From positions 1 through 39,766 of the forward strand of contig NZ_NVXQ01000014.1 in NCBI RefSeq assembly GCF_002733955.1: 39,766 nucleotides of DNA. Direction: 5' to 3'. The notes below the pieces were generated by a model that had not been told where the DNA came from, made no database searches, and saw nothing but the letters and a program-made list of their open reading frames with translations. Source of the DNA: Hoeflea sp. (GTDB taxonomy: Bacteria > Pseudomonadota > Alphaproteobacteria > Rhizobiales > Rhizobiaceae). A program made the position numbers and the translations under genes. Below, piece after piece: positions 20,505 to 27,425 of this stretch (the stretch's first letter is position 1; each line of letters begins with the position of its first letter).

Positions 20505-20759
20505 ATGAAGCAGTTCACCTTTTCCGACATGAACCGATCTTCGGGCGAAATCCTCGAGGCGGCGATGATCGAACCGGTCGTGCTCACCAAGCACGGCAAG
20601 GAGAAGCTCTTTGTTCTCTCTGCCCGGGACTACCACCGGATGCGCGGTGAACCGAGCCCGACGAAGTCCTATTCCCTGCACGATGCGCCGGATGACATCC
20701 ATCAAGAACTGATGTCCGGTATAGACGCCATCCTCGAGCCTGCAAAAAACGATGCTTGA
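20505..20759 (+). CDS. Phd/YefM-family antitoxin
   Basis: This 84-residue protein has the Phd fold signature in its N-terminal half: SDMNRSSGEILEAAMIEPVVLTKHGKEKLFVLSARDYHRM, in which DMNRSSGEIL forms the DNA-contacting helix and PVVLTKHGKEKLFVLSA the central strands. The C-terminal part (SLHDAPDDIHQELMSGIDAILEP) is acidic and would wrap the toxin. Its TGA overlaps the toxin start by 8 bases. The palindrome over its promoter fits autoregulation. Protease turnover of the antitoxin is expected from the family. Confidence 0.85.
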   Translation: MKQFTFSDMNRSSGEILEAAMIEPVVLTKHGKEKLFVLSARDYHRMRGEPSPTKSYSLHDAPDDIHQELMSGIDAILEPAKNDA

Positions 20760-21147
20760 ACAGGGCGATGTCGCCGAGTTTCATTACCTCTGGCACCGCG
20801 AAGCGGAAAAGGGCGAGGAATCCGGCCGGAAGCCTCGCCCTGTCTGCATCGTCATCAAAACACCCGGCAATCCTGATGTCGTGTTTCTCTTTCCTTTTAC
20901 CTCCAGGCAGCCGCTCGACGGCCAGCTTGCGCTGATTGTCCCTGAAATCGAGTGCCGGCGCATTGGGCTCAACCCCCCATGCTGGATCATTCTCGACGAG
21001 TTCAATCGCGTGGAGATGGATAAGGACTATGATTTCGTGTCCACCGAGCCGATCGGATCTGTCAGCGCGGCGTTCCTCCGCGAGATTGCCACGACAATCA
21101 AGCAAGCGGCCCGCGCGTCCGCGATCAAGGCCGTGAAGCGGACCTGA
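20752..21147 (+). CDS. Probable PemK/MazF-like toxin
   Basis: The 131-residue protein starts inside the antitoxin gene. LEQGDVAEFHYLWHREAEKGEESGRKPRPVCIVI resembles the N-terminal strand-loop-strand of PemK-like growth inhibitors (GD(V/I), then KxRPxxVV), here with a longer insert. Family toxins cut mRNA in the cytoplasm. The rest (FLFPFTSRQPLDGQLALIVPEIECRRIGL) is beta-rich as expected, with a basic C-terminal helix. Pairing with a Phd antitoxin rather than MazE/PemI is less usual. Toxin identity is from operon position plus partial motif match and should be regarded as probable only. Confidence 0.65.
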   Translation: MLEQGDVAEFHYLWHREAEKGEESGRKPRPVCIVIKTPGNPDVVFLFPFTSRQPLDGQLALIVPEIECRRIGLNPPCWIILDEFNRVEMDKDYDFVSTEPIGSVSAAFLREIATTIKQAARASAIKAVKRT

Positions 21148-21387
21148 CTTCCGCTCTAAACACTTCCCGACAACAAGACCTCGTATCCCGCACCGTGTTC
21201 GGCTCTCATCTCCCGACCTGGCTGTCCAGCCTCGACCAGGCCGATCCGACCGCACCTGACCAGAACTCTATCCCGGATGCAGCCCAACCTCGCTCTTTGA
21301 GAGATGGCATTCCTGGTGCGGCGCGGACTTCCACGATCAACCCGTAAAGGGTCCGCTCGCAAGCGGCGGCCGCTTGGCTTTGGCCTG

Positions 21388-21414
21388 TGTGTTTCGGCGT
21401 GCAAAATTGACCCC
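21388..21414 (+). repeat. IS21 left terminal repeat
   Basis: Starts TGTGTTTCGGCG and ends TTGACCCC; pairs with 26468-26494 with roughly three quarters of positions identical. Confidence 0.7.
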
Positions 21415-21485
21415 ATTAGCGGGGTGATCGGCGTCCAATTTTGCCCCCCCTCGGATTTATCTGACCATCCGTGTTTTGACAGCGG

Positions 21486-22997
21486 ATGGAGAGGGAGTTG
21501 AAGCGAGTGGATACGATTGCGCGCGTCCGGCGAGCCTTCCATGTTCGAGGCTGGTCGATGAAGAAGATCGCCCGCGAACTGCATGTTTCCCGCAATACGG
21601 TCCGCAAGATATTGCGCTCCGACGAGACCGACTTCTTCTACGAGCGCGAACGACAGCCTTTGCCGAAGACGGGTGTCTGGAAAGTCGAGATCGAGCGTTT
21701 TCTTGCGGCAAACGAAGGCCGGCCATCACGTGAACGGCTGACGCTGATCCGGATTTACGAGGAGCTTCGGGCGCTCGGATACGACGGCAGCTACGATGCG
21801 ATCCGCCGTTACGCCAAGGGTTGGGCCAAGAACCGCGGATCAGCGACGGCGCAGGCCTATGTGCCGCTTTACTATGCACCCGGCGAAGCCTTCCAGTTCG
21901 ACTGGAGCCACGAGATTGTGTTGATCAACGGGGTGACGACGACCGTCAAGGTCGCCCATGTCCGGCTCTACCACAGCCGTATGATGTTTGCCCGCGCCTA
22001 TATGCGCGAGAGCCAGGAGATGGTGTTCGACGCCCATGACAAGGCCTTCGCCTTCTTCCGCGGCACCTGCACGCGCGGCATCTACGACAACATGAAGACG
22101 GCGGTGGAGACGGTCTTCGTTGGCAAGGAGCGGCTATACAATCGCCGTTTCCTGCAGATGTGCAGCCATTACCTCGTGCAGCCGGTTGCCTGCACCCCGG
22201 CGTCTGGTTGGGAGAAAGGCCAGGTCGAGAACCAGGTCGGCCTGGTGCGCGAACGCTTCTTCACCCCGCGCCTGAGGGGCAAGAGCCTTGAGGAATTGAA
22301 CGTCTGGCTGCTCGACAAATGTGTGGCCTACGCCAAGGCGCACAACCATCCGGAACAGGCCGACCAAACGATCTGGCAGATGTTCGAGGCCGAGCGCGGC
22401 AGTCTCGTCCCCTATGTAGGGCCGTTCGACGGCTTTCACTGCGTTCCGGCCTCGGTGTCCAAGACCTGCACGGTCCGTTTCGACAATAACAAATACTCGG
22501 TCCTCTCAACGGCTGTCGGCCGCCCGGTCGAAGTCCACGCCTATGCCGACCGGATTGTCGTCAAGCAGGATGGCACGGTCATCGCCGAACATCGGCGCAG
22601 CTTCGGCCGCGGCGAGACGGTCTATGATCCCTGGCATTATGTGCCTGTCCTGGCCCGTAAACCCGGCGCTCTTCGCAATGGCGCACCGTTCCGCGACTGG
22701 GTGCTGCCGGCGGCGATGGAGAAGGTCCGCAAGCGATTGAAGACCATCGATGACGGTGATCGGCAAATGGTCACCATTCTCGGCTGCGTGCCAGACGACG
22801 GCATCACCGCCGTGGAGGCCGCATGTCAGGAAGCGCTTGATCAAGGTGTTTGCTCGGCTGCCGTCATCCTGAACATCCTCGCGCGACGTCGTGATCCGGC
22901 CCCGACCGCGCCCCTGCAAATCCCCGATGCGCTGCGGCTGACCCATGAGCCGGTCGCCGATTGTGCACGATACGACAGCCTCAGGAGGGCAAGCTGA
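21486..22997 (+). CDS. istA: IS21-family transposase IstA
   Basis: The 503-residue protein has an N-terminal helix-turn-helix ([21 protein letters not shown], about 18-40) and an RNase H-fold DDE domain: [15 protein letters not shown] (first Asp), [13 protein letters not shown] (second Asp) and [18 protein letters not shown] (Glu). A C-terminal beta domain follows ([23 protein letters not shown]). It is full length for the family. The stop TGA overlaps the istB start (TGATG), the usual translational coupling. The enzyme needs IstB, which is broken here, so this copy should not move alone. Confidence 0.93.
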
Positions 22998-23628
22998 TGG
23001 AACGCACACAGGTTCTGGAATTGATGAGCACCTTGAAGCTCTACGGCATGCGCAGTGCCTATGACGAGGTCATGGGTAATGGGATCAAACGACAGCATGA
23101 GCCGCCGCGTATTGTTGGTGATCTCCTGCAGTCCGAGATCGCCGAGAAACAGGCGCGCTCCATCCGTTACCAGCTCAGCATCGCCAAGCTGCCTCTGGCC
23201 AAGGACATCGACGACTTCGACTTCGCCAACACGCCCGTCAATGAAGGCCTCGTCCGCGAACTGGCCACCGGAGCCTTTGTCGCCGATCAGCGCAATGTCG
23301 TTCTTGTCGGCGGCACAGGCACAGGCAAGAGCCACCTGGCCATCGCGATTGCCCGTGCTCTCATCCGCAATGGCACACGCGGGCGCTTCTTCAATGTCGT
23401 CGATCTGGTCAACCGCCTGGAGACGGAGACGCGCAGCGGAAAGCAGGGAAGAACGGCGGACTATCTCAACCGTCTCGACTTCATCATCCTCGATGAACTG
23501 GGCTATCTGCCCTTCGCCCAGGCCGGAGGTCAGCTTCTATTCCATCTGATCAGCAGGCTCTACGAGCGCACCTCGATCATCGTCACCACCAACCTCGCAT
23601 TCGGCGAATGGCCAACCGTGTTCGGCGA
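22997..23628 (+). pseudogene. istB: IstB ATPase, 5' part (210 codons), interrupted
   Basis: This part encodes the AAA+ helper of IS21 up to [11 protein letters not shown]. It has Walker [13 protein letters not shown] and Walker [13 protein letters not shown], and the N-terminal zone [18 protein letters not shown]. The frame stops being IstB after GGCGA at 23628, inside the conserved [14 protein letters not shown] motif. The missing 35 codons are at 26253-26357. Joining 23628 to 26255 restores GAC and an uninterrupted 244-residue IstB, so the insertion is recent and precise. Confidence 0.92.
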
Positions 23629-23648
23629 ACCAAACATCACAGGCTGCC
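23609..23648 (+). other. attL-like junction of the serine-recombinase element
   Basis: IstB sequence GTGTTCGGC is followed by GA (23627-23628) and then by the element end ACCAAACATCACAGGC. The same GA occurs at the right junction, as expected for the 2-bp crossover of a serine recombinase. Confidence 0.7.
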
Positions 23649-23663
23649 GCCATTCTCGACAGG

Positions 23664-24143
23664 ATGGTGTCTCATTTGACGGTCGTCGACCCGCGCCACG
23701 GCCTTGCGGGTCAGCGTCTCGAGCTCGTTTCAGGCCGGTCCGGGCGCGGTCCGGCGTTCGTTGTCGTTCGATTACCTGACGGACGCTGCCGTTCAATTCG
23801 CCGCTCAGCGACCGATCTTGCGGCCGAAACACCGGAAGATCGGAATGCATCGAAGTCGGCGCCTCGCGTCAGCGTTCGAACGCTGCTCACATTGATGCAC
23901 CATTTGAACAGCAAGGTTGCCTCCCGTTCCAAGGAGGTGATTCGCGATGAACGTGCAATCGAATCCGTACCGCGTAGCGTCCCAGTCTCTCACAAAGCTT
24001 CTGAACCCGAGCACGCCACGCCCGCGTCCGTGGCTCGATCTGCCGGCGGAGACGCGGAAACAGATCGCTCAGGGTCTTGCGCCACTGTTGATGCGGATGC
24101 GGTGGTCGACCCGCGCGCCGACAAAGGTGGATCGGCATGTTGA
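23664..24143 (+). CDS. DUF5372-like small protein of the recombinase element
   Basis: ATG at 23664 begins [52 protein letters not shown], which resembles DUF5372 proteins (HPxHxLxGxxFELV...DGRLRSLPxxWTDL) that accompany recombinases and transposases. That homology ends near [15 protein letters not shown] (about residue 85). The frame then stays open to 24143 across the next gene in another phase, so the true product may be extended by loss of a stop. The role of these proteins is unknown; a helper in recombination is an inference from constant linkage. Confidence 0.6.
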
Positions 24144-24156
24144 GAGCTTCGAATAG
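23947..24156 (+). CDS. 69-aa accessory protein of the recombinase element
   Basis: It begins at an ATG preceded by AAGGAGGTGATT, an unusually complete match to the 16S anti-Shine-Dalgarno end, so strong translation is expected. The product contains [25 protein letters not shown], a helix pair seen in small ORFs next to recombinases in alphaproteobacteria and actinobacteria; no name is known to me. It overlaps the recombinase start by 20 bases, implying coupled translation. Confidence 0.65.
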   Translation: MNVQSNPYRVASQSLTKLLNPSTPRPRPWLDLPAETRKQIAQGLAPLLMRMRWSTRAPTKVDRHVESFE

Positions 24157-26242
24157 TCCCGACGAACGCGTCACGGCCGAGCATCGCGGCAAGCTCGCCT
24201 ACATCTATGTCCGCCAGTCTTCCGTGAACCAAGTGCGGCATCATCAAGAAAGCACGGAGCTGCAGTATCGTCTCGTCGATCGGGCCGTCGCTCTTGGCTG
24301 GCCGCATGAACGCGTGCACGTCATTGATGAAGATCTCGGCAAATCCGGGACCGGTCTCGTCGAGCGAGAGGGCTTCAAGAAGCTGATCGCCGAGATAGGG
24401 CTGGGAAACGCCGGACTGGTCATCAGCCTCGACGCCTCCCGGCTTGCTCGCAACAACCGCGATTGGCATCAGCTCCTCGATCTGTGCTCATTGTTCGGCG
24501 TCATCATCGCTGACGGGGAACGGCTCTACGATCCCTGCGCTTACCACGACCGCCTGTTGCTGGGCTTGTCCGGCATCATGAGCGAAGCGGAGTTGCATCA
24601 GATCAAGCAGCGCCTCCATCAGGGCGAGCGCCAGAAAGCGGCGCGCGGCGAGCTGCGCCTTCCTCTTCCCGCCGGATTGGCTCATGACCGTTCGGGCCAG
24701 ATCATTCTCAATCCCGATGAGCAGGTGCAGGCGAGGCTCGGCCTAGTCTTCAACAAGTTCCGCGAGCTTGGAAGCGCGCGGGCGGTGATGCGCTATCTGC
24801 GAAAGGAGAATTTGCCGCTGCCGATGCGTCCCTTGCTTGGTCCGGCGCCGCACGAAGTGGTCTGGCGTGAGGCAAGCAATCCGCGGGTGCTCAGCATTCT
24901 CCATAATCCCGGCTATGCTGGGGCGTATGTGTATGGTCGGCGGCGGCTGAATGGCGGGCGCGTTCGCCAGGGTGTTTACCGCCCGCGGACAACCAAGGTC
25001 CCCATCGCGGACTGGGAGGTCTGTCTTGAAGCCGCTCATCCTGGTTACATTAACTGGGAGGAGTTCATGGAGAACCAGAGGCGATTGGCGAACAATATCA
25101 ACCGCTACGAAGCCGGCCATTCAGGCACGCCGCGCAAGGGTGCCGCACTGCTGCAGGGCATCGCGGTCTGTGGGCGGTGTGGTCGTCGGATGAGTCTGCG
25201 CTATAGCGGTCCCGCAGGGAACTATCCCGTCTACACATGCCGCGCCGACCGCGGCCACGACGGGGGGGCGTTATGCCAGGAAGTGCGCGCGCTACCGGTC
25301 GATGCACGCGTCGAAAGCATTCTGCTTGACGCCCTGATGCCGGACAGGATCGCCATCGCCGTCGCCGCACTGGGCCAGATCGAAGAGGAAGCGCGTCAAC
25401 TCGAGCGTCAATGGGCCCTGCGGCGCGAACGGGCGCGCTATGAGGCGGAAAGGGCACGGCGCCAATACGATGCGGTCGAGCCCGAAAACCGCTTGGTGGC
25501 GCGTTCGCTGGAGCGCGGCTGGGAAGAGAAGCTGCGCGCCGCCGAGGCGATCGAGCAGGATTATGAACGGTGGCGGTCTGACGAGCCCCTGGTCCTGAGT
25601 GAGGCAGACCGCGACGGTTTGCTGGCGCTCGGAAAAGACCTGCCCGGCATCTGGCGCGCCCCGTCGACCATGGCGGCCGAGCGCAAAAGCATCCTGCGCC
25701 TCATTATCTATGAAGTCGTCCTCGACCAGAAACGCCTGCGGGGACGGGTCTGGTTCAAGATCCTGTGGCAAACGGGAGCGACAAGCGAACACTCTCTCCA
25801 GAGGCGCGTTCACACCTATGGCGACTACATCGATATCGACAGGCTGCGGAAGCGCGTGACGGAGCTGAACGCCGCTGGGAAGATGGACAAGGAAATCGCG
25901 TCGACGCTGAACGCGGAAGGCTTCTTTGCGGCACAGAACTGCGCCTTCAAGGGTGATAATGTCTGGTTGTTGCGGAGACGTTGGGGTATTCCTACAGTCA
26001 AAATCAACGGCACGAGCGCCAATCCCATCCGATGGCCGGACGGAACCTATTCCATCCACGGAGCTGCTGTTGCTCTCGGCGTTACGCCGCAGACCATCTT
26101 CAAATACCTGGCTCGCGGCCTGGTCGAAGGCCGGCAGTTGGTGAAAGGACAACCATGGCAGATAGAACTGACGGACGAGCTGATAGACACTCTGCGCGCT
26201 CGCGCCCAACGCAATAGACGATCGAGGAAACAGGCATCATGA
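24137..26242 (+). CDS. Large serine recombinase (resolvase/invertase fold), 701 aa
   Basis: N-terminal catalytic domain: [13 protein letters not shown] with catalytic Ser28 after Arg26, [33 protein letters not shown] and the long helix [28 protein letters not shown] recombinase domain follows ([33 protein letters not shown]). Then comes a zinc ribbon, CGRCGRRM ... [16 protein letters not shown] (about 349-382), a coiled-coil ([27 protein letters not shown], about 415-450) and a C-terminal basic region with a helix-turn-helix-like [17 protein letters not shown]. Length and order fit the large serine integrase group. It acts on att sites at 23627 and 26253. GGTGG precedes the ATG. Confidence 0.93.
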
Positions 26243-26274
26243 AATCATTGGTGACGCCAAGATGACGACCGCAC
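26233..26274 (+). other. attR-like junction of the serine-recombinase element
   Basis: The element end CATCATGAAATCATTGGT is followed by GA (26253-26254) and IstB sequence CGCCAAGATGACG. It overlaps the recombinase stop at 26240-26242, so the gene runs almost to the element edge. Confidence 0.7.
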
Positions 26275-26357
26275 TGCTCGACAGGCTCACCCATCACTGC
26301 GAGATCGTCGAAACCGGCAACGAGTCCTGGCGCTTCAAAAACCGCTCTCAAAGCTAA
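26253..26357 (+). pseudogene. istB: IstB ATPase, 3' part (last 34 residues)
   Basis: The frame [20 protein letters not shown]... ends NRSQS at TAA 26355-26357. It is the conserved C-terminal end of IstB and continues exactly the reading frame broken at 23628. No start of its own is expected. Confidence 0.92.
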
Positions 26358-26467
26358 AGCCGAAGAGCCCTACCACCCGCACCTGGTTCGCCCTCTGCAA
26401 CCCCGGCCAGCGCCGGGCGAACCAGGTGCTGATCGTCAACATGGGGGTCAACATTGGACGCCGATAT

Positions 26468-26494
26468 GGGGTCAAATTTCCGCGCCGATTGACA
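26468..26494 (-). repeat. IS21 right terminal repeat
   Basis: Reads TGTCAATCGGCG inward on the minus strand and ends TTTGACCCC; mate of 21388-21414. At 26494/26495 it joins the ISL3 transposase gene. Confidence 0.7.
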
Positions 26495-27425
26495 GCCCTT
26501 GCTGGCGCAAAGCGTGGAGCATGTCGAATATTTCCTGGCGGGATTGCCGATGCGCAAGACGGGCGCGACGGCGATGTGTGGCAGCGTCAACAATTGCGTC
26601 CTCTGGCAGAATAGCCCTGCCGGTGGCGCGCCCCGAAAGGCTCATCTGTTCTTCGATGGCCGAGCGAAGGTTCTGGACCAGATGAAACCGATCGGCGACC
26701 TGTTGGGCCTGCGGTGCGCCTTCACGAGCCGCCTGCGCATACAGGCCGCAGCGGTCCCGACTAACAATTTCGATGGAAGGACGGTCACGCAGCCACTTGG
26801 CCGCACTCTCGACGCTACGGTCATCCAGTATGTCGACAACCGAGCGGCGCTCGAGGTCGACCATGATGGTTCCGTAGTTCGTCGCCCTCCGCCAACTCCA
26901 ATCATCGATACCGACCACCCGTAACTCGGAATTGCGATGAGCAACCTCGGCATCCCGCTTCAACTGCCTCAGGATGGTGTCATCATTGACGGGCATGCCG
27001 AGCCGCTGCATTAACCGCTCACCAGGGCGGCCGCCGGCGCTATGGCCGAACAGGCCGACAATCTCTCCGACCCTTCTCGTCCGACGCGCGTATGGATCAG
27101 CTACCGTCGGCAGTCGGTCTGTGAACGTTCGTCGTGGGCATTCCCGCTGTGCACATCGCCAGCGGCTCAGCAGCAGCTTCACTGTCACCGGCTTGCCCTG
27201 GACCGGCAGATCCTGGAGGCTGCGGCGGGCCCAACCATGCCGACTTCGGCTTCGCCGTCCACAATCGGGGCAGATGCCGATCGCGGATCCAGCAGCGGAA
27301 ACAACCCACCCGTCGTCAACAGTGAGCGTGGCACCCAGAATCTTAACCCCTGGGCCGGGCGACCATGTCGATTTCTTTTGCATGCCCGCCCATAGCGACA
27401 TCATCGCTAACAGCCGATGAATCAC
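26495..27425 (-). pseudogene. ISL3-family transposase, 3'-truncated by IS21
   Basis: The minus-strand frame has an N-terminal zinc-finger zone (ICPDCGRRSRSRHGWARRSLQDLP, then RWRCAQRECPRRTFTDRLP). Part of the DDE domain follows: RVVGIDDWSWRRATNYGTIMVDLERR (Asp) and IVSRDRCGLYAQAAREGAPQAQQVADRFHLVQNL (Asp). It breaks off at MLHALRQQG where the IS21 end begins. The final Glu and about 80-150 C-terminal residues are absent. The element's outer end probably lies at 27454 (GGCACTTAATGAGG inward). Start could be GTG 27425 or ATG 27383 (MQKKSTW). Confidence 0.88.

Follow-up and report, generated by a model that had tools for sequence, protein, structure and literature searches.

A minimal serine-recombinase element at codon 211 of an IS21 istB gene in Hoeflea sp., and relatives that appear to settle in genes of other mobile elements

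The istB gene of an IS21 element in Hoeflea sp. (NCBI RefSeq assembly GCF_002733955.1) is interrupted near its 3' end. This raises the question of what has entered the gene, whether the interrupting DNA moves by itself and why it sits at this particular codon. The window, which is the whole stretch of 39,766 nucleotides of contig NZ_NVXQ01000014.1 that was analyzed, contains the features collected in Table 1. The sequence bears out the initial annotation, according to which istB breaks off after 210 codons and a GA, restarts in frame with another GA and, when the flanks are joined with a single GA, encodes an IstB of 244 amino acids. The two parts match positions 3–204 (of 238) and 199–237 of the Pfam IstB_IS21 profile, respectively. 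The joined form is also natural, as the empty site on an A. vitis plasmid (L132) is uninterrupted and reads TTCGGC-GA-CGCCAAGATGAC. Both this plasmid and a Rhizobium plasmid (L141) carry an intact annotated istB of 735 nt, in IS21 DNA that is 92.2 and 91.2% identical, respectively, to window positions 21350–23628. Because a natural empty site and intact istB genes of the same length are found on plasmids, the insertion is real and exact, and the presence of a 2.6-kb element at codon 211 of this istB is confirmed.

Table 1. Features of the inserted element and its host IS21 in the Hoeflea window.
Feature	Coordinates	Strand	Remarks
istA of host IS21, apparently intact	21486..22997	+	NF033546 285.9 bits, cut-off 160
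Left terminal inverted repeat of host IS21	21388..21416	+	inverted repeat pair
istB 5' part, codons 1-210 plus GA	22997..23628 (codon 210 ends 23626)	+	PF01695 E 4e-58
GA core, left junction (putative attL)	23627..23628	+	
Inserted element	23629..26252	+	2624 bp plus one GA core copy; relatives with similar ends
Left element end, one putative attP arm, ACCAAACATCACAGGCTGCC	23629..23648	+	mirrors other arm
DUF5372-like protein, 159 aa	23664..24143	+	Pfam 24.7 bits, just under cut-off 25
69-aa protein	23947..24156	+	similar sequence in 41 loci
Large serine recombinase, 701 aa	24137..26242	+	PF00239, PF07508, PF13408
Right element end, other putative attP arm, overlapping recombinase stop codon	26233..26252	+	
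GA core, right junction (putative attR), first two bases of istB codon 211	26253..26254	+	
istB 3' part, codons 211-244 and stop (26355-26357)	26253..26357	+	PF01695 positions 199-237
Right terminal inverted repeat of host IS21	26466..26494	+	inverted repeat pair

The three open reading frames described initially are present, and nothing recognizable as cargo was matched. The recombinase exceeds the Pfam cut-offs for the Resolvase (PF00239, 64.7 bits), Recombinase (PF07508, 47.6 bits) and Zn_ribbon_recom (PF13408, 36 bits) domains. No match up to E 0.1 was obtained for DUF4368, a domain of the TnpX/TndX subfamily, and the NCBIfam models for the SCCmec Ccr recombinases gave 15–26 bits with cut-offs of 700–900. 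Neither the list of open reading frames nor family scans of the three genes revealed phage or ICE genes for structure, replication or conjugation within 23629–26252, and no phage record covered 80% of the recombinase.

The two small proteins are less readily classified. Clear DUF5372 proteins lie upstream of the recombinase in two relatives (L103, 100 bits; L125, 90 bits), and they align with the window protein at 27–28% identity. The first 95 amino acids of the DUF5372-like protein have tblastn matches (E up to 0.05) in 71 loci and the 69-aa protein in 41, counts that include repeat views of the window, and both small reading frames appear to be conserved at the protein level. The 69-aa protein had no match in Pfam and NCBIfam at E up to 0.1. 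For the DUF5372 part, a structural model (pLDDT 76, pTM 0.48) contains four strands and a helix, a predicted small beta barrel plus helix. Since its resemblance to SH3-like barrels is only weak (best E 0.013, TM 0.42), no function is claimed. As a guess, the two proteins may perhaps take part in excision, act as directionality factors or have a regulatory role. Extra genes for an HTH protein and a small protein lie between the DUF5372 gene and the recombinase gene in L125 and, by reading, in L082 and L122.

The ends of the element resemble an attachment site. When they are brought together, the two arms mirror each other at 14 of 20 positions, which corrects the 15 counted in the initial annotation; by our own arithmetic, the binomial chance of such mirroring at 1/4 per position is about 3e-5. 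The arms of the empty site do so at only 6 of 20 positions and are hardly symmetric. The core lies 11–12 bases past the recombinase stop codon, and GA or TC is found there in most readable relatives. Very probably, this is a minimal site-specific mobile element whose serine recombinase uses the istB site as attB. The element ends would abut in a circular form to create attP, which the recombinase would join to attB, the conserved Phe-Gly-Asp codons of IS21 istB. The 2-bp core at which strands would be exchanged corresponds to the first and second positions of codon 211, GA in the window, and the other bases would remain unchanged. Where codon 211 encodes Asp, the core would fix the orientation, with GA read along istB and TC against it. 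Insertion would separate the C-terminal 34 residues from the rest of IstB, and the host IS21 is probably silenced. For this reason, the element is presumably moved by its own recombinase, and IS21 would serve as a widespread landing pad.

A survey of homologues and their flanking genes, as proposed in the initial annotation, allows this model to be examined. A scan of genome contigs yielded 128 relatives, and the 80 best ones, representing 79 loci, were retained. The close set consists of 77 loci with recombinases at least 52% identical to that of the window, namely 71 from the contig scan, two from a further genome search and four on plasmids, these being four of the 39 plasmid records with at least 60% identity. 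A gap delimits this set, the complete sequences beyond it reaching at most 43% identity. Junctions are readable at 74 of the 77 loci (all except L046, L051, and L070), and at 67 of these 74 the insertion is at istB codon 211, a count in which L054 is represented by its right side only, the junction lists were entered by hand, the left cores of L014, L021, L024, and L055 were set by reading, and the nine Rhizobium altiplani loci, which consist of left or right element ends at the edges of contigs, may correspond to fewer insertions. Both istB halves are found in one sense at 38 loci (the left side of L017 by our own reading, with no blast match). Many of the target IstBs are just 25–50% identical to that of the window. 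The element runs along istB in 29 of the 67 cases, against it in 36 and is mixed in two (L033 and L040). These last two lie between two like halves (both 3' or both 5') that come from different istBs, which looks like the product of recombination between two insertions.

The seven loci outside istB include an IS5-type transposase gene (L039) and two IS630-type genes (L063 and L065, with AC and AT cores), all three assigned by our own motif reading, and a HerA-like ATPase gene (L066, PF05872, left half only). At L023 a second copy of the element lies on the right side; L062 and L069 complete the group. The proposal that the element spreads wherever istB occurs is therefore upheld for the great majority of the clade, but the occurrence of relatives in unrelated genes, which had been named as evidence against it, is real though rare (7 of 74, three of them transposase genes by reading), and the targeting of istB seems to be one example of a broader tendency to strike genes of other mobile elements. 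Overall, the earlier interpretation is supported.

The junction sequences agree with a large serine recombinase and a 2-bp crossover, as had been suggested: an identical dinucleotide is present at both junctions in 34 of the 37 loci read on both sides (L034 is not part of this comparison). However, the core is not always GA. Element-strand cores also include TC, AA, CT (L055, left side only), and AC or AT (L063 and L065). At L050 the core is AA on both sides, and istB restarts with an AAC codon. The unequal cores of L017, L019, and L098 each show one G-to-A difference in the istB sense, which could reflect either a tolerated core mismatch or a later mutation. L009, represented by its left end only, has an AA core.

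Elements with GA cores lie along istB and those with TC cores against it. This link was considered as an independent test of polarity and rejected, because in istBs with an Asp codon it follows from the shared core, so that core and orientation are a single observation. Support for polarity control therefore comes from the clade pattern, in which polarity clusters on the recombinase tree with five changes, from non-Asp targets and from one pair of loci. The elements at L013 and L097 are 93.1% identical over 2621 bases and have TC and GA cores, respectively, and opposite orientations, which would be predicted if polarity were determined by the central dinucleotide. For the Bxb1 and phiC31 serine integrases, such a role of the central dinucleotide is established by work cited in PMC3783163. 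The circular form may itself have left a trace. At L023, the right end of one element is followed by TC and then by the left end of another, diverged element, whose aligned pieces are 78–83% identical to the first. This arrangement is the end-to-end joint predicted for the circle.

Movement by the element's own recombinase has to be weighed against other histories. The window genome holds only one full copy, and the host IS21 retains istA and both of its ends, as might be seen if an immobile element had entered one istB long ago and had since been passed on through transposition of IS21 and by vertical descent. In Mesorhizobium sophorae, however, three copies identical at 2625 of 2625 bases each lie in a different istB gene; of the three flank pairs, two have no blastn similarity, and the third is 76% identical over 281 bases. 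The target IstBs of the clade cover an identity range of about 25–98%, while its recombinases are 55–100% identical to that of the window, and insertions are found in both orientations. Passive carriage by IS21 is thus very unlikely indeed.

The GA core and the seven of 74 loci elsewhere would also suit a TnpX/TndX-like serine transposon that has multiple targets and a loose preference for GA, and that strikes istB because IS21 is abundant. According to the accessible part of PMC4430133, the TndX of Tn5397 requires GA at the center of its site and, in C. difficile, favors a Fic-domain site. Against this, a single codon of a single gene accounts for 67 of the 74 loci, and the recombinase has no match to DUF4368, the domain carried by 63% of the multi-targeting clade in the accessible part of PMC10083194, which makes this explanation very unlikely. 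Another possibility, an extremely improbable one, is a programmed reversible switch by which excision restores istB and the host controls IS21. In cyanobacteria, fdxN is a coding gene that contains a serine-recombinase element, and XisF restores it by excision. The window element likewise lies within a coding gene, its precise junctions would restore the istB frame, and the recombinase has a weak similarity to the XisF equivalog model NF041201. Nevertheless, the score is 56.5 bits against a cut-off of 375, and the many target genes and hosts argue against such a switch.

With insertion by the element's own recombinase at a specific site as the preferred reading, the relationships among the recombinases become informative. 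A FastTree phylogeny of 85 recombinases was used only for its short, well-supported clades, because the program warns of joined long branches in this quick tree. All istB-211 recombinases fall within one branch of 39 sequences (local support 100), which also includes L039 (IS5-type) and three sequences lacking a target label. Among the labeled sequences, six from IS66 TnpC genes with a common site (IRP) occupy one side of a branch (support 100), as do four from IS3 (support 100) and four from LtrA split at FFD (support 99). The TnpC sequence L111 (inserted at a different site), the IstB P-loop sequence, the TnpB sequences and the IS701 sequences did not group with their like in this tree. Several recombinase clades, as assigned from these sequences, each have a common target codon.

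More distant relatives extend this pattern to other genes. Fifty-two loci were taken and 46 counted, with recombinases 33–43% identical to that of the window; L087 (the same protein as L086) and the incomplete L095, L118, L119, L123, and L124 were left out. The 46 comprise eight from the contig scan, 25 from searches of 397, 385, and 398 genomes, and 13 plasmid loci that were hand-picked among hundreds more records, some with their transposon annotation in view. At 22 of the 46, both halves of a mobile-element gene lie at the sides of the element. Tblastn matches to both halves identify 16 of these: LtrA split at FFD (L100, L104, L105, L120) or at GIPTV (L102, L103), IS66 TnpC (L086, L090, L092, L111, L128, L131), IS66 TnpB (L083, L129), ISNCY split at KGR (L125), and an IstB 67–81% identical to that of the window but split at the P-loop (L116, GGTGTGKSH), which gives istB a second target codon. 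The remaining six were assigned at least partly by our own motif reading, namely IS3 split at Tyr-Asn (L088, L089, L091, L113), ISAs1 split at HWxIEN (L072) and IS110 (L117); L072, L088, L091, and L117 have a family match to one half.

A single likely half was seen at 12 of the 46 loci, and these one-sided cases are weak evidence. The half was assigned by family or tblastn match at seven (L084, L085, L112, L122, L126, L127, L130) and by our own reading at five (L075, L079, L082, L093, L121), L121 being an M15 peptidase gene that we read as a prophage gene. Two loci lie in genes of other kinds, encoding an SpvB-like protein (L076) and a nucleoside hydrolase (L108), and ten have no assigned target (L074, L077, L078, L080, L094, L101, L107, L109, L110, L114). 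Family scans gave no match for the left half of L072, L075, both halves of L101, the L082 half and the N-terminal half of L103, a result that speaks against the assignments made by reading or lends them no help. The family looks like a set of specialists on the genes of other mobile elements, and the codon shared within clades is the strongest part of the evidence. The claim for the family as a whole is weaker, because hosts and plasmids with many mobile elements were over-sampled, several assignments are readings and the counts have no matched background.

These properties can be compared with those of known systems. The domain set, the 2-bp core, a partly mirrored attP and the use of a single conserved coding site for attB are shared with the site-specific large serine integrases (Bxb1, phiC31, A118) and with large serine recombinase elements that have conserved coding targets, such as genes for a Mg-chelatase-like protein and a prolyl isomerase (Durrant et al. 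2022, PMC10083194). The accessible part of that paper gives competence genes and a Mg-chelatase as favored targets and does not name transposon genes as enriched. The window element differs from these in its size of about 2.6 kb, its lack of phage or ICE genes and its target, a gene of another mobile element. With Tn4451 and Tn5397 (TnpX/TndX) it shares the GA core and, as far as the available text of PMC4430133 goes, TndX also prefers one protein-domain coding site. In contrast, the window element has no DUF4368 match, no conjugation or resistance genes and a narrower site.

A set of genes on pNGR234a of Sinorhizobium fredii is similar in that its recombinase is 42% identical, a DUF5372 gene lies upstream and the set is located within a transposase gene (ISNCY, KGR). 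It differs in its target and in having four genes, annotated as recombinase, transposase, HTH, and DUF5372, which we take to be y4bA-D, a name aided by the Y4bD/Y4pK label on the matched record. The group II intron RmInt1 homes into ISRm2011-2, an insertion sequence. Introns of this type are likewise mobile elements specialized on a site in other mobile elements, but they move by RNA retrotransposition, whereas the window element would use DNA strand exchange by a serine recombinase. No literature title or abstract among the matches listed describes an element with a serine recombinase in istB or in a gene of a transposon; the search did not extend to subscription papers or supplements.

It seems fairly likely that the elements represent an old and extensive lineage of minimal serine-recombinase transposons, which are hyperparasites of other mobile elements, with individual clades settled on conserved codons. 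These codons, which are often catalytic, would include IstB Phe-Gly-Asp or P-loop, LtrA GIPTV or FFD, IS66 TnpC, IS3 Tyr-Asn, ISNCY KGR, ISAs1 HWxIEN, IS110, and others. Site-specific elements usually have tRNA or conserved host genes as their safe landing sites. Codons of selfish elements should cost the cell little as targets, and the spread of the insertions would follow that of those elements. If this is true, a landing site would be available in very many genomes with the cell unharmed, and such DNA-level hyperparasites of transposons may naturally restrain insertion sequences and group II introns. By our own reading, some close relatives have changed their target from istB to genes of the IS630 or IS5 type, which would amount to a natural retargeting experiment for a large serine recombinase. 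Together with polarity switching by the core dinucleotide, such retargeting is of interest for recombinase tools. In addition, DUF5372 and DUF6788 genes gain a likely context.

Around the host IS21, a target-site duplication was looked for and none was seen. An ISL3-family transposase reading frame (window positions 26472–27425, minus strand; PF01610 and PF14690) ends at the right end of IS21, which therefore probably lies inside the ISL3 transposase gene, so that the locus would be a nest of mobile elements. Upstream of IS21, at 20752–21147 on the plus strand, is a gene for a PemK/MazF-like protein (PF02452, 20 bits, below the cut-off of 23.1). A second istB of the same genome, on contig 39 at 55888–56551 (L137 and L138), contains no element and is matched as two adjoining pieces in different frames, as if it had been frameshifted.
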